From the NCBI GenBank assembly GCA_026929865.2, contig CM049398.1:13411001-13475000 (forward strand): 64,000 nucleotides of DNA, written 5' to 3'. How positions within the stretch are numbered: position 1 is the first letter of the stretch; each line of letters starts with the position of its first letter. Shown one piece after another: positions 4,341 to 62,774 of this stretch. The position numbers were made by a program, and so were the translations under genes. The notes beneath the pieces are model-generated. The model saw only the letters and a program-made list of their open reading frames with translations, did no database searches and had not been told where the DNA came from. Source of the stretch: Hyperoplus lanceolatus. Its lineage: Eukaryota > Chordata > Actinopteri > Uranoscopiformes > Ammodytidae.

Positions 4341-5561
4341 CTGTCCAGTTATTATTATATTTAATACTTTTAATCCAAAATGAATAAAATAAATACATAA
4401 ATAAAGCAATTCATTAAAACGAGCAATTAAAAATGTAAGCTTCCAATATCTAGAGTTGAGTGACAACCGTGTGAACTCAATCTGCTGATGAATACAGTAT
4501 ATGAGAGCCAGTTTCAGTGACTGTTAATAAATTAAAACTTAGCCTCAGTTGTATGCTGAGTTGCACACAAGTATTTTGTTGGTTTGTCGTTGCAGTTCAC
4601 ACTACGGTAGTTGCCCATTTTTTTGGGACGTATATGCTGCTCATGGATTCCTAGACCTGCTAATATGAGAGGGTTGTAGTTCATAAACCCATATTCACTC
4701 ATATTCATGCTAGAAGATTAAAGTATTCTAACAAAGTTAATTTAAATCACTTTATAGAGGGCAAAGGTTCACAGATAACATTTCAGGGACAATCCCTTAT
4801 TAAAATACAAAAAGCTATTATGGATTATGTGTGGATGACTTCAGTCTAACTAAAGGTCTTCTTTCATGTAGGGAACTAGTTGAAAGCCAGGGTCTAATCA
4901 GTGCACACTTAGGGGTTGACATTCAGCTAATGCATCATCATGCTGTAATATATTCATCCCCCTGCGATTTCCTGAGAACAGGTTGTATTTGAATAGGGAG
5001 GATTTATCAGTGTGCTGCCATCTACTCACTTTAATTGTAACTGTGGGTGAACAACACTAGTGAGTTGGCTTAAAACTGTGCCACTTTTCCATCAACAGCA
5101 GTGGGACATGGCTGCCTCTCTGAGTGAAAACAGGTAGTCAATTGACGGGCAGGCAGAGGGGGATTTGGGGAGTTCAAGGAAGTGAAAGTAGTAGTGTCAA
5201 GTTTCCTTTCCAGTGGAACTTCACCTTCCCCAAAACCTATTGTGGCATTTTAAGGTGGCAATAGCTCCACAAGGAATTGAACCGGAAAACAACAGCATCT
5301 AATGGGGAAAGTATCATTTTCTCTCCCTAAAATTAGTCTGCCATACCTTTACTCATCAGTGAATGGAAAGGGACTCGAGCAGCACTGTGACCCCTCAGTC
5401 GTAAATGCCATGCACTCTGCTGACTGGTGGTTTAAAGACTTTTAAAACCTCAGTGTTCAAATAGGACATAACCTTTGTTTGGCATTCATGCAGTTTATGA
5501 AGAGGAAAGTCAAAAATGTGGCTCATTACATTACACATCATTTGTATAAAGATAACGTATC

Positions 5562-21930: not shown

Positions 21931-22632
21931 CTAATTAAAACAGTTACAGGTAGAGTTTGGCAGATTCAAGATAGTTTGTTTAAATTGATTAAAGGATATG
22001 AAGGTATTTAGTTTAATTTGTTGCTGTAAGTTGTTCCAGGAGTCTGGGGCACTTAAGCTAAAAGCTGTCTTTCCCAGCTCAGACCGGGCTTGTGGGACAT
22101 AAAGCATGAGCATGGCAGTGGAGCGGGTCTGATAAAGCCCATCTGAAATTTGCAACATTTCTGTTAAATAACGAGGAAGCTTCCCGGTCAAGGCTTTGTA
22201 AATAAAAATATGCCAATGTGCATCACGTCTCTCTTTAAGGGAGTACCACCCAACCTTTTCATATAAAAGACAATGGTGTGTGTCATAAGCATCTCCTGTG
22301 ATGAACCTTAAAGCAGAGTGAAAAACAGAGTGTAGGAGTTTAAGACATGAATGAGATGCATGTCGGTAAACCACATCACCGTAATCAAGGACAGACATAA
22401 AAACTGCCTCAATAATCCTTTTCCTACTAAATACAGGGAAGGTGGTTTTGTTCCTATAAAAATAGCCAATTTTTTGTCGTAGTCGACAAACAAGACTTTT
22501 TATTTGGAAATTAAAAGTGAGTTTATCATCTAACCAGATGCCGAGATATTTGTACTCTGTGACTCTTTCAATTAAAAATCCATTCTTTGTAAAAATATTA
22601 AAATCATTAAGAGTTGTAGTTCTTGCTCTGGA
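21931..22632 (-). pseudogene. LINE ORF2 fragment: RT thumb and C-terminal domain
   Basis: Beyond the deletion, a different frame stays open to the stop at 21931. It contains the YKYLGIWLDDKLTF block that follows the RT palm in this superfamily, a C-terminal SVLDYGDVVY block, and the GKTAFSLSAPDSWNNL motif near the end of L2/CR1-type ORF2 proteins. Joining to the upstream fragment is out of frame, so the deletion also caused a frameshift. Confidence 0.85.
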
Positions 22633-23548
22633 AAGTCACAGCAGAGACAGTACTGTGACCTGCCCTAAAACCAGATTGGAATGGGCTCAAAATGGAAGCA
22701 CTAGTTAGAAATGTTTTTAACTGATTACTAATAAGTGATTCTAGAATTTTTGCGAGGCATGGGAGTTTGGAAATTGGCCTGTAGTTATTAAGATTATTTT
22801 TGTCACCACCTTTATGTAAAGGAATTACATGAGCTTTTTTCCAAATTTTAGGAACTATTCCAGAGGAGATCGAAAGATTAAAAATATGGGTAATTTGTTT
22901 TGATATTATATGTGTAGAAAGCTTGATTGAAAACGGGTCCAAATTGTCCTCTCCCATGTACTTCTTGGGGTTGATGGCGAGGAGTGCATCTACAACAACA
23001 CTTGTGGGAAGAAGATCAAGGCTGAAAATAGGAGTTTGAGAGACAGGCGGTACGTTACTACTGGTGGTAGAAGGCATATATCCTCCATTCTGAAAGAGTT
23101 GACCAGCAGCTACAAAATGTTTATTAAAAGCTAAGCCAATCTCTTTTTGATCATTGAGAGTGTGACCATTTAATTTGATCTGAGTGGGAACTGTGCTAGA
23201 ATTGTTCTTATTATAGTTCACAGCTTTCCAAAATAGTGCAGGGTTAGAGTAGCAGTTTGAGATTAATTCAAGGTAGTATTCAGATTTGGCTTTCCTAATC
23301 ATGGATGTGCACTTATTCCTAAGGTGTCTAAAAATAGTCCAATTGGTATTATCTCCAGAGCGTCTAGCTAGAGACCATGCTTTATTTCTCTTCGAAAATA
23401 AATCAGACAGTTCACTTGTAAACCAGGGGTTTGATCTATTTTTTACTCTATGCTTTTTAAGGGGCGCATGCTTGTTTATAATTGAGGTGAAAGTATTGAT
23501 GAAATGGTCTAAGGCTAACTCAACATCCGAATATGCAATGCTGTTTTA
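22633..23548 (-). pseudogene. LINE ORF2 fragment: endonuclease-RT linker and RT fingers
   Basis: The frame is open from the truncation point to the deletion. Visible motifs are PWFTSELSDLFSKRNKAW (linker), IWKKAHVIPLHKGGD followed by NNYRPISKLPCLAKILE, and FQSGFRAGHSTVSAVT. These are the conserved early blocks of jockey-superfamily RTs. The ATG at 23302 is internal and not a true start. The frame runs on about 30 bases past the deletion into out-of-frame sequence before stopping. An intact ORF2 of such a LINE would be several times longer. Confidence 0.85.
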
Positions 23549-34977: not shown

Positions 34978-35847
34978 ACATTCATACAGTTAATAAAATA
35001 ATATGTCCCCAGTATGATGTTGGGCATTCCGAGATTTGACGTTTTTTTGTTTGTGTTGATGTACCTGATAATATAAAGGCTTTCCCTGAATATTCCCATG
35101 AGCAGTGTGCAGAGTGCAGACTGAGCGCTGTTTGAGGCGCAGCAGATCATTGAAGCGTAGTTTCACTCGACTATAAGTGCATGCTGTCTCTGGAGGAGTA
35201 CGCCAGTGAAGAGAGGAGCTTGCTCTTTCTCCTTCATTGGAAGTGAAACAGCTTCGAACACTGACCTGAGCAAAGTCACAAAATGCACAGATGGAACTTG
35301 AAAAAGATGGTTTACTATATATCGCTCGGTTAGTGGATAAGCAGTCATGCTTTGTCTTATTTGCTTTGCAGGACTGTAAAGCTATTATCACAAAGTGTAA
35401 CATATGTATATCGACCTCAAACGTTATCTTTTGTATTTGCAACAAGATTATATCTCACGGTTCACAAGCTCGTAAACGTCTCTTAACTACTTTCTCAGTT
35501 TTATATGTGGTTAATTTAGCTGTTTGTGCAAAAGATTAGATATGCAAAATAGAGGGATGGATCTCCATTAACAAGAAAACAAATGTGTCTTCCTCTTACA
35601 CTTATGCAGATGTCGGTTTGGACACAGGGGATTGACCAATTAGATTAGGCCCGTTCCTGCTCACTAATTATCATCAGCGGTCATGGTAGGATGCTAATTG
35701 TTAGCACTACAGCCCAACTCATCCAAAACATTGTCCATCTGTTTAGAGTTTGCTATATTAACATTACTAGTGCAATGCCCGTAGGAAGCAGGTAGCTTAT
35801 GCTTGAATGTAACCCATCTATCAAAGTGGGACACACAAACAGATGTA
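34978..35847. other. unassigned non-coding DNA
   Basis: No transposon ends. A 151-codon minus frame (35445-34990) lacks any recognisable domain and overlaps competing frames. Confidence 0.55.
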
Positions 35848-36458
35848 GGCTGTGTCTTGATTCAGGTATTGCAGCCTATGAAGGCTGCATTTGAAGACCG
35901 ATTGCGTCATAGCGGCGCGCAAAGGCTGTCCCGTTTGCAAGGCTCCTTGCAAGGCCCCTCATATGCGGTCGTGAAATGCAGCCTTCGTTTCACGGTTTTT
36001 AAGGCTGCATCAGATGGATCCTTCGCGGCCCAACATATCCCATGATTCATTGTGTTTTTTTCAGAGATGGCATAAAATAAAATAAGAAATAACAAAACAG
36101 CAAAGTGTTGCTCCATCTTCTTAACTTTCAACATCCTTTCTTTTCTTCTTGTACTTTTTTTTCTTTTCGTCTGGTAGGCAACTTCTTTTTCTGTTTTCCT
36201 CCGTTGAGGCTGTCTCCGTTGGCAGCAATCAGGGTTGCTAGGCAGCACAGGAGCGGCGAGTCGTCACGCAAGGTAACGGCTTGTTACGTAAACCGGAAAT
36301 GCTCGTAAACCGTGACCTACGGAGACCGTCTCATTTAACAAGGCTCGTTGGCCTTAAAACCGGCCTTAAAATCGGCCTTCATAGGCTATAGCCTTCATAG
36401 ACCGCGAGACTGCGTCCTACCAAGTGCGTGGTCTCTGTAATGGGACATAGCTGCAGCC
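35848..36458 (+). mobile_element. MITE with GGCTGTGTCTTGATTCAGG ends, copy 1
   Basis: It begins ggctgtgtcttgattcagg and is about 85-90 percent similar by eye to copy 2, sharing gaaggctgcatttgaagacc, ggatccttcg and ggttgctaggcagcacagg. The right end is degenerate (gggacatagctgcagcc). The 113-codon minus frame that recurs in all three copies lacks an ATG at its apparent start and is probably not coding. Confidence 0.8.
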
Positions 36459-36958
36459 TACACATAGGCAGTGTCACACTGTCATTGAAATGGCTGTCAC
36501 GTCACTCGTCAGTGTGACTTACGTTCTTTCTTTAATATTTGTTGCGCCATATATAATCATCTATTCTTTACAGGCAAATCAGCTGAATTTTTTTATTGGT
36601 AATTGCAGCTTGAAGGCAGCAGCATTTATTTTTGCAAACAAAATGAAGGGCATTTTTGCATCTTACATAGTCTTTAGCTCGTTTAGGTGTTAGTTTCTAA
36701 CGGATTCAAAAAAAATTTGGGAAGCGATCGCGTTTATATTCACAGGTAGAAGAGCTATCTGAGAATTTAAATTGAAAATTAAAACGCAATTGACACGCGA
36801 ACTGAAAATAGCGTCACTGTCGCGGAAGTGTTAAACTATACATTAACTCTATAACAGTGAAAATAGCGTAACGTGCGATCTTTAACACTAAAGCGGACAG
36901 GTTTAAGAACGTTTTGTTTGGAAAGTTGGGTGCATTGAATGAGGAAGTAACAGACTGT

Positions 36959-37568
36959 GGCTGTGTCTTGATTCAGGGGTTGCGGTCTACGAAGGCTGCA
37001 TTTGAAGACCGATTGCGTCATAGCGGCGCGCAAAGGCTGTCCCGTTTGCAAGGCTCCTTGCAAGGCTCCTCATATGCGGCAGAGAAATGCAGCCTTCTTT
37101 TCACGGTTTTGAAGGCTGCATCAGATGGATCCTTCGTGGCCCAACATATCCCATGATTCATTGCGTTTTTTTCAGAGATTGCATACAATAAAATAAAAAA
37201 TAACAAAACAGCAACGTGTTGCTCCATCTTCTTAACTTTTATCTTCCTTTGTTTTTTTCTTGTACTTTTTTTTCTTTTCGTCTGGTAGGCAACTTCTTTT
37301 TCTTTTTTCCTCTGTTGACAAGGCTGTCTCCGTTGGCAGCAAACAGGGTTGCTAGGCAGCACAGGAGCGGCGAGTCGTCACACAAGGTAAAACGGCTTGT
37401 TACGTGAACCGGAAATGCTCGTAAACGGAGACCTGCGGAGACCGTCCCGTTTAACAAGGCTCGTTGGCCTTAAAACCGGCCTTAAAATCGGCCTTCATAG
37501 GCTATAGCCTTCATAGACCGTGGGACTGCGTCCTACGTCGGCTGCAACCCCTGAATCAAGACACAGCC
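36959..37568 (+). mobile_element. MITE copy 2, complete
   Basis: Ends ggctgtgtcttgattcagg and cctgaatcaagacacagcc form a perfect 19-bp inverted repeat. The body contains many short internal palindromes of the ttaaaaccggccttaaaatcggcc kind. Directly abutting it on the right is copy 3 in the opposite orientation. Confidence 0.9.
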
Positions 37569-37570
37569 CC

Positions 37571-38055
37571 TGGCAATGAGCCTTGTTAAACGGGACGGTC
37601 TCCGCAGGTCTCCGTTTATGAGCATTTCCGGTTCACGTAACAAGCCGTTACCTTGCGTGACGACTCGCCGCTCCTGTGCTGCCTAGCAACCCTGATTGCT
37701 GCCAACGGAGACAGCCTTGTCAACAGAGGAAAAAAGAAAAAGAAGTTGCCTACCAGACGAAAAGAAAAAAAAGTACAAGAAAAAAAGAAAGGAAGATAAA
37801 AGTTAAGAAGATGGAACAACACGGTGCTGTTTTGTTATTTTTTATTTTATTGTATGCAATCTCTGAAAAAAACGCAATGAATCATGGGATATGTTGGGCC
37901 ACGAAGGATCCATCTGATGCAGCCTTCAAAACTGTGAAAAGAAGGCTGCATTTCTCGGCCGCATATGAGGAGCCTTGCAAACTGGACAGCCTTTGACGCA
38001 ATCGGTCTTCAAATGCAGCCTACGTAGGGTGCAACCCCTGAATCAAGACACAGCC
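37571..38055 (-). mobile_element. MITE copy 3, inverted and truncated
   Basis: It is the reverse complement of copy 2 without the outer roughly 115 bp. It ends ccctgaatcaagacacagcc at 38055. Together copies 2 and 3 make a 1.1-kb inverted repeat, with actgt on both outer sides (36954-36958 and 38056-38060). Confidence 0.9.
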
Positions 38056-38240
38056 ACTGTCTGCTGTGTGTCCCGCTCGTCAATCCAAGCTTTGGTCGCA
38101 GCAGCCAATCAAATCAGACGGAGGCGGGGTTTAGCCGGAGACTAGGCCTACTTCATGCCCGTCGTTACTATGGCCTTCAGCGTGCAAATGTATTTGCCGC
38201 CAGCATGATATAAATATGATAACTGCTACATATTTGGTCC

Positions 38241-38390: not shown

Positions 38391-40834
38391 AAATGGTAAA
38401 TTGAAAAGTGAAAATAAGGTTGAATCATTTGACCGGCTGCTCTTCGACTTGAAAGCAGTGCTAGCGATAACATTAATTTACTAATGTGTTGTAATACGTA
38501 TGTCAAGACTGTGGGGGCCAAAGTAAGGAACAGCTTGTGTAGAGTTAACAAATTTAAGAATATAAAGTTTTGACAAAGAAAAAAAAACAGGTTGGTTTTC
38601 AGTGAATTTACAGCAACCACATTTTGCTTGCATCTATAGATGTCATTTTGTAAAAGCACAACCTGCTCTAATTCGGCAGTTTTTTAGATTAATGCCTTTT
38701 GAGCTGCTTTAAGAAAAATATCCCAAAAGCCTGTATCATGCTCCAGTGTACATTTAAAAGGCTATGTATCCAAGGCCTTACTGAACTGTGGATTAAGCCC
38801 AGTGACAGGGGTCGTGGTAAACTCCTCCTGTCTGGGTTATCAGCCTCTGACAGCCCGCTGCTCTCTGATCGCTGCTGCCGTCACAGGAGCATGCATCACA
38901 CACTTGTCAAAGCGCCTCTCCTCCGCCCACCCCCTTTCTGCTGAGAGTCAACACCACAGTCTCACCACCACACATGTATTTACGTGCTCGCAGACACTCT
39001 CACAAAGCGGGCATGCACACACACAGGCACATACACACACACTCAGACATTCACATACTGTACACTTATACGGACACAGTTTCCTTTATGGTGACAAATC
39101 CTGCCTGAGCTGGCTCCCGTCTGTGAGTCACGGCGTGGTGTGGTGTACGAGTCAAACTCCCCCGTCATCTGCCTTTCCCAGATGGATCCGCGGGGCGTCC
39201 GAGGGCGAGGGGCCTTGTGTGATGTCCGCAAATTGCAGAACGTTTTCGGACTCAAACCCCCCAATGATCCCGATGGAGAGCAGACACATATAAAGGTGAA
39301 TGGGGGCAACATCGCGGCTTGACTGGGGTTTTAATCCAATAAACCATGATTTCACTGAATCACTGCGCTGATCCCATTTTCTCTGTGTACATATCCGTTC
39401 TTTCATCGTGGCTCCTATTTGCCCTATAATGGGATTAACTCCGATGACACCAATCTGAAATCTAGCTTTAAACTCTGCAGTGTGAGTCTTATTTCACGGG
39501 TTATTCCCATAAGGAATAAAACATGGCTTGGGTTACATAATTAGGTTTCTCCCTCTCAACCCAAATGTAAATGATGACAGAATATTGATGAATAGCCCAG
39601 TGTGTGTAATTTTTTGTTTTCGCCTGGCCCCCTGGTCAAGATGCCCCCAGAAACACAGCAAAAACTGACAAACCATGTTAATCAATGTGTCAGTAAAATA
39701 TGTAGAGGGCACTGTCATTAATAATGGATGCTGTCAAGAGCAGCTCAAATTCATTGCATCCTAACCCTGCCCCAACCACAACGGGGCTGTGCAGCGAAGT
39801 TAGACTACGTAATTTGGCACTAAAGCTCAAATTTCCTCCATGCCTACATTTAAGACGCATAAGGTTCTCCGTTATTATTGTTTAAACCACCAATAACTTT
39901 TCAAACACAGCTATTAAGCAAGCTTATTACCAAGTTATTCCACTCCATAATAAAATCAACGTGGAACAATTGACCCTGGCGGAACAAAAACCCTTTCACT
40001 CGTCTGTGCCTCATTTTCATGCTGCAACAAGACATTAGAGAGCTGTTACATTGCTCTGTCTCTCATTGCTCCCAGAACCATTAACAATCAACAGTTTCTT
40101 TTTCCCCTTCCACACCCTCGTCTCTTGTTCTTATTGGTCAGAGGCAGAAATACTTGGCCATCTAGTTTGGATGTATGTAGCTACAATGTGCACAAAAGCA
40201 TATGGTTGTGGGTGATTAATGTGGGTATGCATTAAACCATCACTAACCACATTTGACCTCATTGACTGTTTTTTCATGAAGCTTTAAGCTGTTTTTCTTT
40301 TTAAAGAAGGTGCAGTTTTTATTTTGTCTTCTCATTGTGATTGTCTGTAAGGCAGGTATGAAGGTCTTTGTGATAAACACAGAGAACACAGTTAAATTGT
40401 AGCTCACCATTAACCCATCATCCCAAGTAGTGATGAGGAGTGAGATAGTTTGGATATTTTGAAAGCATAACAACTTTTAATGCCCTTTTGATCCTTTACA
40501 CTTGGCTTCATAGGTTGTACATGGTGGTAGACCAGCCTCTATTGCAGATTCTCAATCGTCACATACACTTAAACTCTTTCTAAATTATTTATAAAAACAC
40601 CGGTAAATAAACTAGAGATGCAGCTTTTTGCAACTGTGCTTCAAAGCTGCTGAATACCAAAGCTATTTAGAAGGACTTTTTGTAAAGATAGTTAGTTTTT
40701 GCTTATGAAATCAACTAAAAGCTGATAGAACCAACTTCTCATGAAGCACCCTTTATAAAAGGCTTTATAAAATTGTAATTTCTGGCATTATCTGTGATTA
40801 ATAAAAAATCTACTTTTGCTTGTTTATGTAAGTC
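38391..40834. other. unassigned non-coding DNA
   Basis: Apart from a CA-rich patch at about 38985-39066, nothing is recognisable. A plus frame of 163 codons (38802-39293) crosses the CA-rich patch and has overlapping frames on both strands; I do not support it as a gene. Confidence 0.5.
38985..39066. repeat. CA-rich low-complexity stretch
   Basis: Interrupted acac/cacac runs with intervening gcatgc and tcac. Confidence 0.8.
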
Positions 40835-40935
40835 AAGGCAAGTCAAGTTTATTTATATAGCACAATTCAGACACAAGGTCATTCAAAGTGCTTTACAAGG
40901 GAAAGATTAAAATACATGTAGTTATAAATCATCAA
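40835..40935 (-). mobile_element. L2 LINE 3' tail, minus strand
   Basis: The sequence caaggcaagtcaagtttatt, tatatagcacaattcagaca, caaggtcattcaaagtgctt is the reverse complement of the 3' end of the L2 copy at 43480-43550. Only the tail is present. Confidence 0.88.
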
Positions 40936-42246
40936 TGATAGCAACCTCTAGGTTGGTTTATAAATGTAAAACAACAATAAAAGTTATATTATAAATGAAA
41001 TGTTTAAAGCAGAAGTAGGTAATATATTTATGTTAATATATGTGGTAAATCATACAGTGATCACTTGTATAGTGTGCACGCTTCATAACACACGTCTCTC
41101 ATTCACTCTGCTCTGCACGTAATCGGCAAAAACTTTTCTGGTATGCGCTTACAATGGTGGAGCAGGTAAAAATCCTTACCAATGTCGGTTTTTATTGTTT
41201 TTATCATGTTTTATTGCACTTACGGATCTAAGATGACACTAGATAACTCGCTGTTTGACAGGAAGTTAGCTAACATAATTTTGCTTACTTTTCTTTAAAA
41301 AAAATCTATATTAAAGTGGCATAAGCTTTTAATAAGCCGTCAGCAAATGTTCATGAGGCGGTCATAAATGTTAACAAGTCGCTGATGAAGGTGTTTTAAA
41401 ATAATCCATCTATTCTGCAGCTTTAAATGTCAATGAATATTTAATAAACGAATGTGGCCCAGATGCCCTCGAGCTACTTAAGTTGTTCTCAATAATGGCT
41501 TATTACGGATCTATAAAACATCAGTAAATGTTCGTCATCCATGTAAAGATTGACGCGTTAGAAAGTGGTACCTATATGCTGGGTATTCCTGACTTTCTCT
41601 TCATGCACTGGATGGCGTAAGGATTTCATTGCAATTTCCGAGCAAACAACATGTTTGTTTGCAGCCCTGTATTGTAGACTGTATGTGGTTCTCCGCCTCT
41701 CCTCAGAATCTGTTGAGTGGTGTTGAGATCTTTGGGCCGGTAATGTAATTTACTCTAGACACTTGCTCATATTTCTTTTCCTTCAGTTTTCATTAATTTT
41801 ATCAGGCACAGTCCTGAACTGGATCCAGCTTTACATTTTATGCATGACTTAAGTGTTTCAACCCCTCTGAAAATTCACATAAAAAACTCACTTATTGTGT
41901 AGCACAAGTTCTGGCTCTAACTTAAGAAAAAAATGTCAAAAAACAAATTGGTTATTGTCTTTTCACAAAACCCTTGAGTAAACAGTGAGTTTTTGTAGCA
42001 TTTCTCTAAGAGCATTGCCTGAGTTATCTTAATGGAAATCAGCTTTTTTGGGGAGCGAAGGCGGACAGGGGCTTGAGCTATATCTGTATTGAATTCAACT
42101 TAAGATGAATAGAAAGGAATTAGATTGTATAGCACATACATACTGTGGAGTGGAGAGAACTCAAGATGTTTATAAAATTGAGGCAGCAAAAATCGTATGC
42201 CTTGTATGCCCATCATATTCACCCAACACATTCCTTATCAACAATT
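40936..42246. other. unassigned non-coding DNA
   Basis: Near 41005 the sequence tttaaagcagaagtaggtaa resembles the left end of the TTAA-type MITE at 49846, but no partner end is found. Nothing else was seen. Confidence 0.45.
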
Positions 42247-42439
42247 GGTAACACTTTACAATAAGGTACACAAAATTGTAGTAGCTACTACATACCTACT
42301 ACATAGATATGTGTTACCTACTACATAGGTTTTTTTTGTGTTACCTACTACATAGTTTTTTTTGTGCTACCTAACACATAGGGTTTTTTTGTGCTACCTA
42401 TGTGTTAGGTAGCACAAAAAAAACTATGTAGTAGGTAAC

Positions 42440-43550
42440 CATTCTTGGCCCTCTTCTATTTAACATCTACATGCTCCCACTAGCTCAGATTATGAATAAG
42501 AACAAATTATGCTACCATAATTATGCAGACGACACACAAATTTACATAACCATATCACCAGGAGACTACAGTCCAATACAGGCACTGAGTAAGTGCATTG
42601 AACAAATCAATGATTGGATGTGCCAAAATTTCCTTCAATTAAACAACGATAAAACTGAAGTAATTGTCTTTGGTGCCAAAGATGAACAATTAAAAGTCAG
42701 CGCACAGCTTACATCCATTATGTTAGAAACCACACCCCAAGCCAGAAATCTTGGTGTTGTTGTAGACTCTGACTTGAATTTCAAGAAACACATAAAATCA
42801 ATCAATAAATCAGCCTACTACCACCTAAAAAACATATCAAGAATTAAAGGGCTTATGTCTCAGCAAGATTTAGAAAAACTTGTCCATGCATTTATCTTTA
42901 GTAGACTTGACTACTGTAACAGTGTCCTTGCTGGCCTTCCAAAAAAATCAATCAGACAGCTTCAGCTAATTCAGAACGCTGCTGCTCGAGTCCTCACTAG
43001 GACCAAAAAGGTGGATCACATTACCCCAGTTCTGAGGTCTTTACATTGGCTTCCAGTCACTCAAAGAATTGATTTCAAAATTCTGATGTTGGTTTATAAA
43101 GCACTAAATGGTTTAGGGCCAAAATACATTACTGATATGCTGATAAGTTATGAACCGTCCAGAGCCCTTAGGTCGTCTGGGACAGGTCTACTTACAGTCC
43201 CTAGAGTTAGGACTAAACGAGGAGAAGCAGCTTTTAGTTTTTATGCACCAACAATCTGGAACAAACTCCCAGAGAACTTGAGGTCTGCTGCAACTCTCAG
43301 TTCTTTTAAATCGAGTCTGAAGACTTTTTTGTTTCCTTTTTAACTTGCAATTTTCATTTTATTTGCTTCTTTTATTATGTTTTTAAATCGAGTTTTAATT
43401 TTTGTTTTATTTTTATTTCCTCTTTTATTCGCTTTTAAATGTTTTATAATGTGTTTTATGTATTCTAATCTTGCCCCTGTAAAGCACTTTGAGTGGCCTT
43501 GTGTCTGAATTGTGCTATATAAATAAACTTGCCTTGCCTTGCCTTGCCTT
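42440..43550 (+). mobile_element. 5'-truncated L2/Maui-type LINE
   Basis: Inserted inside one ggtaac|acaaaa unit of the surrounding array. Left of the LINE the unit reads ggtaac and right of it acacaaaa, leaving at most a 2-bp duplication (ac). It retains the RT from before the YADD motif, the C-terminal domain, a 3' UTR and the tail tgctatataaataaacttgc ending in (CCTTG)n. The minus-strand fragment at 40835 has the same 3' end. Confidence 0.95.
42441..43343 (+). CDS. L2 ORF2 C-terminal fragment (reverse transcriptase palm, thumb and C-terminal domain)
   Basis: The frame is open without interruption from the truncation point to the TAA at 43343; the first ATG (42471) is internal, so this is a partial protein of about 300 residues. 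In order it shows ILGPLLFNIYMLP (RT block before the catalytic site), YADDTQIYI (the YADD catalytic pair), LNNDKTEVIVFG, NLGVVVDSDLNFKKHI, and the L2-specific C-terminal motifs RLDYCNSVLAGLP, NAAARVLTRT, LRSLHWLPVTQRIDFKIL and IWNKLPENLRS. The element makes DNA from its own RNA at the nicked target site. It lacks the endonuclease and the first RT blocks, so it cannot move by itself. The lack of stops suggests a fairly recent insertion. Confidence 0.93.
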   Translation: MLGPLLFNIYMLPLAQIMNKNKLCYHNYADDTQIYITISPGDYSPIQALSKCIEQINDWMCQNFLQLNNDKTEVIVFGAKDEQLKVSAQLTSIMLETTPQARNLGVVVDSDLNFKKHIKSINKSAYYHLKNISRIKGLMSQQDLEKLVHAFIFSRLDYCNSVLAGLPKKSIRQLQLIQNAAARVLTRTKKVDHITPVLRSLHWLPVTQRIDFKILMLVYKALNGLGPKYITDMLISYEPSRALRSSGTGLLTVPRVRTKRGEAAFSFYAPTIWNKLPENLRSAATLSSFKSSLKTFLFPF

Positions 43551-44705
43551 ACACAAAAAAAACCTATATAGTAGGTAACACAAAAAAAACCCTGTTAGGT
43601 TTTTTTTTGTGCTACCTAACACAGGTTTTTTTGTGCTACCTATGTTAGGTAGCACAAAAAAAACCTATGTAGTAGGTAACACAAAAAAAAACCCTATGTG
43701 TTAGGTTTTTTTTTTGTGCTACCTAACACATAGGTTTTTTTGTGCTACCTATGTGTTAGGTAGCACAAAAAACCCCTATGTAGTAGGTAACACACAAAAA
43801 AAACCTATTTAGTAGGTAACACAACAAAAAAACCCTATATAGTAGGTAACACAAAAAAAACCTATGTGTTAGGTTTTTTTTTGTGCTACCTAACACATAG
43901 GTTTTTTTTGTGCTACCTATGTGTTAGGTTTTTTTGTGCTATCTAACACATAGGGTGTTTTTTTTGTGTTACCTACTACATAGGTTTTTTTTGTGTGCTA
44001 CCTAACACATAGTAGCACAAAAAAAACCTAACACATAGGGTTTTTTTTTTGTGTTACCTACTATATAGGGTTTTTTTTGTGTTACCTACTACATAGTTTT
44101 TTTTGTGCTACCTAACACATAGGGTTTTTTTGTACATATGTGTTAGGTAGCACAAAAAATAGAAAAAAAGGGTAGTTTTTTTTTTGTGCTACCTAACACA
44201 TAGGTTTTTTGTGCTACCTACGTGTTAAGTAGCACAAAAAAAACCCTATGTAGTAGGTAACACAAAAAAAACCTATGTGTTAGGTAACACAAAAAAAACC
44301 TATGTAGTAGGTAACACAAAAAAAAACCTATATACTGTAGTCGGTAACACAAAAAAACCCCTATGTGTTAGGTTTACACATAGGTTTTTTTTGTGCTACC
44401 TATGTGTTAGGTAGCACAAAAAAATCTATGTAGTAGGTAACACAAAAAAACCCCTATGTGTTAGGTTTTTTTTGTGCTACCTAACACATAGGGTTTTTTG
44501 TGCTACCTAACACATAGGTTTTTTTGTTGTGCTACCTAACACATAGTTTTTTTTTGTGCTACCTATGTGTTAGGTAGCACAAAAAAAACCTATGTAGTAG
44601 GTAACACAAAAAAACCTATGTAGTAGGTAACACATATCTATGTAGTAGGTATGTAGTAGCTACTCCAATTTTATGTACCTTATTGTAAAGTGTTACCCAA
44701 CCATT

Positions 44706-59977: not shown

Positions 59978-61298
59978 TAGTACTGTCAGTTAAACGTGCT
60001 ATTAACGGGGTTAACGCAAACCCATTTTAACGGCGTTAATTTTTTTTATTGCGAGATTCACTCTCTTTTTGGCCTAGCAAACGTTGTAGTTTTTTCTCAT
60101 GCTGTTGCAACAACTAGTAACTTTATAACAACTACAACGTCACAAACTATACATTTATCTCGCAGTTAAGTTACTGTTAATTCAAACTGAACACTTCCTA
60201 CTAACTTCACATTAAAATAATTTAACTGGCAAAACGGCTAACTGTCAAGTACATTTTTACTTTTTTTTAAGCAGAAACCGGAACCTAGCGCTTTCTGTGT
60301 GGGACATGCTCTGGGGCTACGCGATGAAAGAACAGAAAGCAAGCTTGTCATTTGCAAAAGTCCTACTTGTAACCCTGCACTCACACCAAAACCCTCATGA
60401 ACGTTAGTGACAGCCGCCATTAATTAATTTTCACTTTAATTTTCGCTAAAAAGGGTGACTGGCTCCAGCAACGCCATAGCAACCACCGGAACACAGGCGT
60501 ATAGTCCACACAGTCTGAAATAAGCTGTGGATTAACGACTCCCAAAACGGCCTAAAACAACCAGTTTAATTTAGCCTTAATACTTAATACTAATTTGTTT
60601 TATAGCCTTTGTTGTTTTATAGTTTGGTTTTCAATAAAAAAACAAAGTTTCAATTATGTTTGTGTACTCTGTTCTAGGGGTGGGGTATCTACATTGTGGG
60701 TTATTTGCACTGAATTGGATATTATGATATTTTAGAAAAATACACTGAATTACAATGGTGTGTGTTTTAGTGATAATGCAGGAGGGCTAGATCAATAGGT
60801 ATGAATAACATCCAGGAATGGTGCACCGATCAGAGTGCAAGGAGTGATGATGAGGAGACGTAGCTTTCTTTAGACTATATTATTTTCGGCCGTATTTATT
60901 TAAATCCTCTTTATTGTCTTCCAGTTTTCTATAAAACAGTAAAATAAAACACCATTAGTTTTATAAAGCATAATAAATAAATAACTATTGGCTAAACATA
61001 TACTCAACAAAAATGTAAACGCAACACTTTTGTTTTTGCTCCCATTTTTCATGAGATGGACTTAAAGATCTAAAATTCATTCCAGATACACAATAATACC
61101 ATTTCTCTCAAACATTGTTCACAAATCTGTCTAAATGTGTGATAGTGAGCACTTCTGCTTTGCTGAGATAATCCATCCCACCTCACAGGTGTGCCACATC
61201 AAGATGCTGATCTGACATCATGATTAGTGCACAGGTGTGCCTTAGACTGTCCACAATAAAAGGCCACTCTGAAATGTGCAGTTTTGTCTCACAGCAAA

Positions 61299-61548
61299 AT
61301 GCCACAAGCATTGAGGGAGCGTGCAATTGGCATGCTGACAGCAGGAATGTCAACCAGATCTGTTGCTCGTGCATTGAATGTTCATTTCTCCACCATAAGC
61401 CGTCTCCAAAGGCGTTTCAGAACTTCGCACAGCCATTGAAGAGGAGTGGACCAACATTCCACAGGCCACAATTGACAATCTGATAAACTCTATGCGAAGA
61501 AGATGTGTTGCACTGCATGAGGCAAATGGTGGTCACACCAGATACTGA
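61299..61548 (+). pseudogene. Tc1-like transposase remnant lacking the DDE core
   Basis: The ATG at 61299 opens the N-terminal helix-turn-helix DNA-binding segment (MPQALRERAIGMLTAGMS, then VARALNVHFSTISRLQRRF). It is then fused out of frame to the last 40 or so codons of the protein (AIEEEWTNIPQ... CVALHEANGGHTRY, TGA at 61546-61548). Tc1-like transposases are normally about 340 residues, so roughly three quarters, including all three catalytic acidic residues, are gone. The element could only have moved with a transposase supplied in trans. Confidence 0.88.
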
Positions 61549-61645
61549 CTGGTTCTGAGTCCCCAGACCCACAATAAAGCAAAAAAATGCACATTTCAGA
61601 GTGGCCTTTGATTGTGGACAGTCTAAGGCACACCTGTGCACTAAT

Positions 61646-61909
61646 GGGGCGACTGTGGCTCAGTTGGCAGAGCGGGTCGGCTGATGATCAAAGGGTTGGA
61701 AGTTCGATCCCCGCCCTGCCACCTGTGTCACAGTTGTTGTGTCCTTGGGCAAGACACTTCACCCACCTTGCCTCGTGTGAATGTCGATAGTTAGTCTGCT
61801 ATCGCTGTATGAATGTGTGTGTGAATGGTAACGTGGGAATGGGAACAGGTCTCCCTTGCAAAAGAGTCTTCGGTCTCAATGGCATATACCTGTATAAATA
61901 AAGGTTACA
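61646..61909 (+). mobile_element. tRNA-derived SINE inserted in the Tc1 inverted repeat
   Basis: Head gggcgactgtggctcagttg gives the A box (tggctcagttggc), and ggttggaagttcgatcccc the B box. The core gtccttgggcaagacacttc follows, then a body ending tgtataaataaaggttac. Removing it restores the Tc1 repeat sequence ctaat-catgatgtca, with at most a 3-bp duplication (aat). Its tail resembles the tail of the LINE at 21690 (ggataaataaaagtta), a possible partner. Confidence 0.9.
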
Positions 61910-62774
61910 AATCATGATGTCAAATCAGCATCTTGATGTGGCACACCTGTGAGGTGGGATGGATTATCTCAGCAAAGCAGAAGTGCTCACTATCACACAT
62001 TTAAACAGATTTGTGAACAATGTTTGAGAGAAATGGTAATATTGTGTATCTGGAATGAATTTTAGATCTTTAAGTCCATCTCATGAAAAATGGGAGCAAA
62101 AACAAAAGTGTTGCGTTTATATTTTTGTTGAGTGTATATACAGTATAGCAGGCTGATATAACTAAACATTCATTATACAGGAAAAGGTCATACACAAAAT
62201 ATACTCAGATAAATTAACAGACTCTACATAACATGACCGCGCCAAAGAGCAGACATGGGGCCAAGCGGCTACACTGCATGTGCAAGACATCTCCCTTTCA
62301 CGTGATAAGCCGACAACCATAGCAACCAAACGACGCTGCTTAACTTAGCTTAACAACCAACGTCAAACTTGCACATAAACATTATTGATTAACACTCATA
62401 TTGAAACAAAGTAAAAAGGCACTTACATTTTCACGAACTCAATACAGGAGAATTACACAATAAGGCAGGTAACAGAAAGACGATGAGCCACCTGCTGGTT
62501 GCTCTCGCATCAATCACTCTCGGACTAACTGGCAGAAAACGAAACTCAACTTATACACTATAGACTGGGAGCAACTGCTCTTAAAGCGACAGTAACCATT
62601 AATCTCAGAGCCTTTTATACAGTGTGGTATGGGTTAAGAGAATTAAAATGAGAAAAAATAATGACAAAAAGAAATCAAGGGACATTTAGAAAAGGCCTAA
62701 ATAAAAATGTGTGATTAATCGCGAGTTAACTATGACATTAATGCGATTAATCCCAATTAAATATTTTAATCGTT

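Follow-up and report, generated by a model that had tools for sequence, protein, structure and literature searches.

A probable family of non-autonomous, foldback-type DNA transposons with block-wise repeat arrays in Hyperoplus lanceolatus

Tetris, a foldback transposon of Drosophila virilis, carries TIR-220 repeats (PMC4079207), and the Galileo transposase domain has one binding site lying about 70 bp inward of the element's end and others in the tandem repeats of the terminal inverted repeat (TIR) (PMC3688188). For both elements, it has been proposed that longer arrays raise transposition. In yeast, template switching is described to invert spacers and to homogenize the arms of inverted repeats, with spacer inversions seen only where the arms are over 9 bp (PMC8604942). 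Here, we analyzed a 64,000-nt stretch of DNA from Hyperoplus lanceolatus (the window), in which positions 42247-44697 hold a TIR element packed with an array of 25-28-bp units. Our main reading, to which we assign a probability of roughly 0.8, is that this element belongs to an abundant non-autonomous foldback-type DNA transposon family, in which a subterminal repeat has been expanded by slippage or unequal exchange and in which local flips have occurred at CCTA-N5-TAGG cores, possibly through switches of template.

With the TIR taken as GGTAACAC...GTGTTACC, the element is flanked by the 8-bp sequences CAACAATT (42239-42246) and CAACCATT (44698-44705), which match at seven of eight positions and are taken as the target duplication (TSD). 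A TIR element with such a flank match had been proposed in a sequence-only reading of this DNA and was borne out, except that the TIR is longer than the 85 bp given there. The left TIR (42247-42382, plus strand) starts with GGTAACACTTTACAATAAGGTAC, an end that recurs in the other two-ended elements that were fetched, and its inner part already consists of array units; the right TIR (44562-44697, minus strand) was recognized by its match to the inverse of this end and by arm complementarity. The outer 90 nt of the arms (42247-42336 and 44608-44697) are 98% complementary, and the complementarity goes on at 89% between 42337-42423 and 44548-44634, which by eye gives a common TIR of about 136 bp. 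The TIR end has two matches in the window at up to three mismatches, as compared to a mean of 0.03 in shuffled sequences. The unit motif also lies inside the TIR, as had been claimed: TACCTACTACATAG is present within the outermost 62 bp, and it recurs in units of the G type as well as in one hairpin of the two-hairpin, 71-bp block described below.

In total, 25 matches to the unit 20-mer were found in the whole window (at most three mismatches) versus a mean of 0.00 in 100 shuffles. An array of inverted units is present, but not the strict alternation that had been suggested, since 15 direction switches (8 T-to-A and 7 A-to-T, by eye) occur among the 44 A/T tracts of at least 5 outside an embedded LINE fragment. 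The 25-bp unit likewise stands, and the repeat is better given as 13-bp cores, CCTA-N5-TAGG, joined by linkers of about 14 bp, TA[G/A]CAC-A(7-8), with both parts found in both directions; this scheme fits badly near 44162 and at 44358-44384. The cores are of two types, with N5 being TGTGT in the "T" cores and TGTAG in the "G" cores, and the flips in the window copy are nearly confined to one of these types. The LINE fragment separates the array into a left part (42310-42439), in which the order is G-, G-, T-, switch, G+ and which contains a perfect 43-bp palindrome (arms 42340-42382 and 42397-42439), and a right part (about 43551-44634), in which cores and linkers run in both directions. The right part includes a local higher-order repeat at 43563-43772 (plus strand), with two tandem copies of 101 and 109 bp by eye in the order G+, A-to-T core, T-, T-to-A core; a tandem-repeat analysis of 43552-43809 gave a period of 111 with 2.4 copies. 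At 43916-43928 a solitary core is inverted while the flanking linkers keep their direction, and at 44013-44026 a solitary linker is inverted while the flanking cores keep theirs. Three adjoining T cores at 43590-43649 have lost 2-4 nt each, as judged by eye; one loss can be read as common to an inverted pair and one as common to a direct pair. This single case can be read as what arm homogenization would give. The left 193 bp of the window copy is 97% identical to another genomic copy, L063, which is also of intermediate architecture.

The suggestion that the array should form hairpins was supported by folding predictions, all of which apply to a single strand on its own and not to cruciforms in cells. 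A 999-nt segment of the array folded as single-stranded DNA at -361 kcal/mol, as compared to a mean of -129 for 20 shuffles (z -54), with the local repeat at 43664-43772 predicted as two adjoining hairpins and 42340-42439 as a single perfect 43-bp stem. In a second copy, L069 (928 nt), the two arms are predicted to pair with each other along most of the element, at -463 kcal/mol versus a mean of -115 for 20 shuffles. The long TIRs with subrepeats are thereby predicted to be able to fold on each other, as in foldback elements.

A 5'-truncated LINE fragment of approximately 1.1 kb inside the array, from 42440 to about 43550, had been overlooked in the sequence-only reading. This fragment (plus strand), which we take to be of the L2 type, sits in an array linker and comprises the end of the reverse transcriptase, a 3' UTR and a TTGCC tail; its 302-aa open frame matches the end of RVT_1 (E 6.4e-10), and at the DNA level a LINE in a related copy, L017, aligns with it over 1,108 positions at 91% identity. 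It is a later insertion, separate from the transposon. The related LINE in L017, from about position 1663, likewise interrupts an array linker there, but in the opposite orientation; two such insertions in a small sample suggest that linkers with A tracts may be favorable sites for LINE insertion. At 40830-40917 of the window, 88 bp match the tail of the array-borne LINE at 92% identity and probably represent another LINE copy, and two overlapping open frames on the minus strand at 21931-23545, the upstream one of which matches RVT_1 (E 2.4e-8), look like a second LINE. Also, a block of about 0.5 kb is found three times at 35825-38077, twice directly (spacing 1,111) and once inverted, with a best arm pair of 333 nt at 98% identity and a similar open frame of 111-119 aa in each copy; the one such frame that was tested had no Pfam match. 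Another TIR element, with 231-bp arms at 97%, is located at 60998-62137; by eye, remnants that resemble a Tc1-type transposase are visible in it, along with a tRNA-like SINE close to the right arm.

We searched the genome (806.7 Mb, 527 contigs) for relatives. The 31-mer of the TIR was identified at 1,518 places (782 + 736) with at most two mismatches, the exact unit 20-mer at 4,465 places (2,207 + 2,258), and GCGCTACCTATGTGTTAGGTAGCAC, a hairpin 25-mer of the alternating subfamily described below, at 1,906 exact places (979 + 927), with zero matches to the reversed control in each case. The 1,518 ends would correspond to about 760 copies if all were paired, but many are not. We examined 53 sequences, namely the window and 52 loci (of which L024 is part of L084, these two being one element). 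Among the 1,518 places, the first 100 (contigs C1-C4), all of them perfect 31-mers, served for sampling; of these, every close plus/minus pair was read and the lone ends in part, with 18 left out, so young and intact copies are over-represented in the sample. Two ends were present in 38 sequences and one end in 15, and element lengths ranged from 125 bp to 4.7 kb.

Among the 38 two-ended copies, the 8-bp TSD matched at 8/8 positions in 27, at 7/8 in 8, at 6/8 in 2 and at 3/8 in 1. A match of at least 7/8 was thus found in 35 copies, as compared to 176 of 19,462 mismatched-flank controls; one two-ended copy, L023, lacks a matching TSD. No flank similarity was detected among these 38 copies (up to 190 bp on each side, E 1e-10), from which it follows that they are separate insertions, and the common TIR in combination with flanking 8-bp target duplications indicates that the elements were mobile. 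At least one core (at most one mismatch) was present in all 38 two-ended copies and in 14 of the 15 one-ended loci, the exception being L091, so that relatives generally lacking the units, which would have spoken against the sequence-only reading, were not seen. It is very improbable that the arrays are assembly artefacts, whether from collapsed repeats or from chimeric palindromic reads. Arrays of hairpins are difficult to sequence, and the exact copy numbers may be wrong, but the separateness of the insertions, with their unrelated flanks and their TSDs that match, the LINE within the array and the block patterns common to copies all argue against such an origin. Two loci, L016 and L017, have in common the left flank and the start of the array, as would a single insertion that was copied by segmental duplication; within the common start they differ by a 13-bp indel and not by a flip. 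Two copies of the direct type (L082 and L094) have a common non-array interior, aligned over 563-855 bp at 90-94% identity, which was perhaps captured or is perhaps left over from a longer ancestral element.

The family is MITE-like in having common TIRs (the 1,518 ends), a fixed 8-bp TSD and, as judged from the open frames of seven longer copies among the 38, no genes of its own. Neither these frames nor, by eye, those of at least 120 aa in the 15 one-ended loci included a transposase belonging to the family. The only transposase-like frame in the seven copies, that of L068, was rejected as a partner since by eye it appears to be part of a Tc1-type element nested in the copy. We assign the family to no superfamily. 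The 8-bp TSD fits hAT, although a TSD of this length is not unique to hAT, and the column counts of the TSDs showed no clear hAT-type consensus by eye. The Merlin-type domain PF12762 (DDE_Tnp_IS1595) had 11 matches in the genome, and in the 10 loci fetched, with about 1.5 kb on each side, no end was found within 2 edits of GGTAACACTTTACAATAAGG, the best being 3 edits in L105. Near-matches to the TIR end at 3-5 edits in L099 (about 2696-2757) and L105 (about 474) are possibly the ends of a sister family or due to chance. A search of the window against Rfam gave no match at the gathering threshold, and the unit pattern had no match in viral_contigs. It had five single matches in genome_contigs, all to bacterial contigs, which we take as chance because the pattern is 19 bases long with three two-way positions and the collection comprises 257 Gb.

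Architecture was compared in 37 copies carrying four or more tracts. Direction alternates at 85% or more of the steps in 24 of them and at 35% or less in 9, in which units are mostly like-directed, and 4 fall in between. The window copy is counted with the four intermediates, at a tract figure of 0.37 in which the LINE tracts are included. The alternating copies are built from a two-hairpin block of about 71 bp, in which the hairpin GCGCTACCTATGTGTTAGGTAGCAC, at times slightly varied, is followed by an A tract, then by CCCTATGTGTTACCTACTACATAG or its second form and lastly by a T tract. These blocks repeat directly inward from each end to a mirror centre, the position of which varies; exceptions are L075, which has more than one mirror centre, and L025 and L073, which are nearly one-sided. 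In the clear direct copies (e.g., L020, L058), each arm contains like-directed units, and there is a single switch. Independent flipping of every 25-bp unit is accordingly ruled out in the alternating copies, where the block of about 71 bp repeats directly.

We compared 22 alternating copies in 231 pairs, with tracts collapsed (block length 65.3) and L078 and L025 left out. Gap costs were stiff, because under lax ones L078, which has 246 bp, reached 99.6-100% identity to many copies. Nine of the 231 pairs were at least 99% identical, and in these pairs 29 of the 34 gaps of at least 40 deviated from a block multiple by no more than 7 and 5 by more. The corresponding numbers were 83 of 104 gaps at 98.5% identity or more and 234 of 317 at 97.5% or more, as compared to about 23% expected near multiples if gap sizes were uniform. 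For example, L022 and L080 are 99.5% identical over 1,462 columns, with large gaps of 66 and 262 (one and four blocks), and L070 and L080 are 99.2% identical over 1,197, with large gaps of 67, 65 and 133 (one, one and two blocks). Since in-register alignment of a tandem array favors whole-repeat gaps, this ladder documents block-wise difference and not its cause or direction. Relatives with fewer units that differ stepwise, as had been foreseen, do exist, but in the alternating copies the steps are mostly whole direct blocks of about 71 bp rather than single inverted 25-bp units.

The sequence-only reading had also proposed that the array may have grown from the terminal repeat; the unit motif does start inside the TIR, while inverted 25-bp steps do not describe most differences among the alternating copies. 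A process in which the terminal repeat is duplicated time after time in inverted (foldback) fashion, with an inverted copy added at each step, seems unlikely. Such a process could be read from the perfect 43-bp palindrome at 42340-42439, from the losses at 43590-43649 if these are common to inverted neighbors, and from the mirror centre in most alternating copies, but the arms in the 24 alternating copies of the 37 are mostly direct tandems of about 71 bp, and relatives differ mostly by whole blocks.

The left and right 58-bp ends were identical in 21 of 23 alternating copies and differed by one edit in the other two, as compared to 0-8 edits in 12 other copies (2 in the window copy), with L015, L025 and L092 left out. 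The alternating subfamily therefore looks the youngest in this sample. A block termed X2 is located at left position 3 in 13 of the 17 copies with at least 12 blocks. In this comparison, each copy was turned to whichever direction fitted L022 better, a choice that favors agreement, so the position of X2 alone is informative and we make no claim of greater conservation of end blocks. A possible though doubtful explanation is that the array is kept since its units repeat a subterminal transposase-binding site, with longer arrays raising transposition, so that expansion would be selected at the level of the transposon and not be a neutral by-product of slippage at hairpins. The distribution of TACCTACTACATAG over the TIR, the G-type units and one hairpin of the block would suit this, as would the young appearance of the alternating copies and the subterminal and internal binding reported for the Galileo transposase domain (PMC3688188). 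Against it, the sites are putative, no transposase partner having been found in the copies searched, and L078, at 246 bp with very few units and an 8/8 TSD, inserted too, or shrank since.

Direction switches were also assigned to cores. In 23 direct or intermediate sequences, switches were located at 24 of 84 T cores and at 2 of 87 G cores (in L063 and L018), and in 25 alternating sequences at 360 of 438 T cores and at 0 of 250 G cores; a further 202 cores, the context of which could not be read, were excluded (in the former set 21 T and 53 G, in the latter 67 T and 61 G). The repeats are copies of each other and the core counts thus not independent, for which reason no p-value is given. A rule that flips never occur at G cores was rejected, given the two cases outside the alternating copies.

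Under our main reading of a foldback-type family with an expanded subterminal repeat, copies with one TIR and 8-bp target duplications would have been mobilized by a transposase supplied in trans. Further copies of the motif just within the TIR can be followed through the interior in the sequence, and in the alternating subfamily the blocks of about 71 bp, in which related copies mostly differ, would have been gained or lost whole by slippage or unequal exchange. A polymerase template switch between short inverted CCTA/TAGG would flip the stretch between them and homogenize the arms, which would account for the direction flips in intermediate copies such as that in the window; the solitary core flip and the solitary linker flip in that copy are consistent with such a step. 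The window copy would then be a member of intermediate architecture that was hit afterwards by the LINE. Template switching is here suggested by array anatomy and by analogy to the yeast data. Template-switch mutation as described (PMC8604942, PMC8794818) similarly yields an inverted stretch between short inverted repeats and arm homogenization, but there in single hairpins, with spacer inversions only where arms exceed 9 bp, and here in array cores and linkers with arms of 4 bp. A further, speculative and rather improbable idea is that the hairpin pair is the replicating module, in which palindromic cores drive block-wise expansion and independent flips of cores and linkers, and that the alternating architecture made the youngest subfamily successful because each block presents anew a hairpin that the transposase recognizes. 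If so, the family would provide a natural ladder along which repeat growth driven by hairpins and inversion by template switching could be measured in an animal.

With shared ends and arrays that differ block by block, these numerous independent insertions offer a natural experiment on the growth, flipping and survival of palindromic repeats, and the family bears on whether repeats within long TIRs help transposon mobility. Such copies are easily split into simple repeats, which calls for caution in assembly and annotation. The letters of the TIR and of the unit were not found in open-licence papers, and the family may already be catalogued in repeat databases.

Finally, we compared the family to described elements. 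Short non-coding TIR elements linked to tandem arrays include Xstir and miDNA4 in Xenopus and Angel in zebrafish, for which stem-loop models were presented (PMC12628747), and the CMITE arrays of corals (PMC2872659); these were set apart from the window family by their descriptions, not by sequence. Neither the alternating two-hairpin block nor the mirrored ladder appears in the descriptions of Tetris, Galileo, the MITEs or CMITE available in the open-licence literature. Galileo and Foldback have in common with the window family long, internally repetitive TIRs with inner repeats of a subterminal motif, but Galileo is placed in the P superfamily by its transposase, whereas the window family is likened to it by TIR structure alone (PMC3688188). 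Tetris is, in the account available, also a non-autonomous foldback element with a variable number of tandem repeats in the TIR, with repeats that have a stretch in common with the outer TIR, and for which the transposase was not found (PMC4079207). TIR-220 is also described in arrays without a TIR end, whereas all of the 12 arrays first listed on contig C1 contained at least one TIR end (at most 5 edits). The repeats of Tetris measure 220 bp (PMC4079207), as compared to the units of 25-28 bp or the hairpin pairs of about 71 bp, in both directions, in the family described here.
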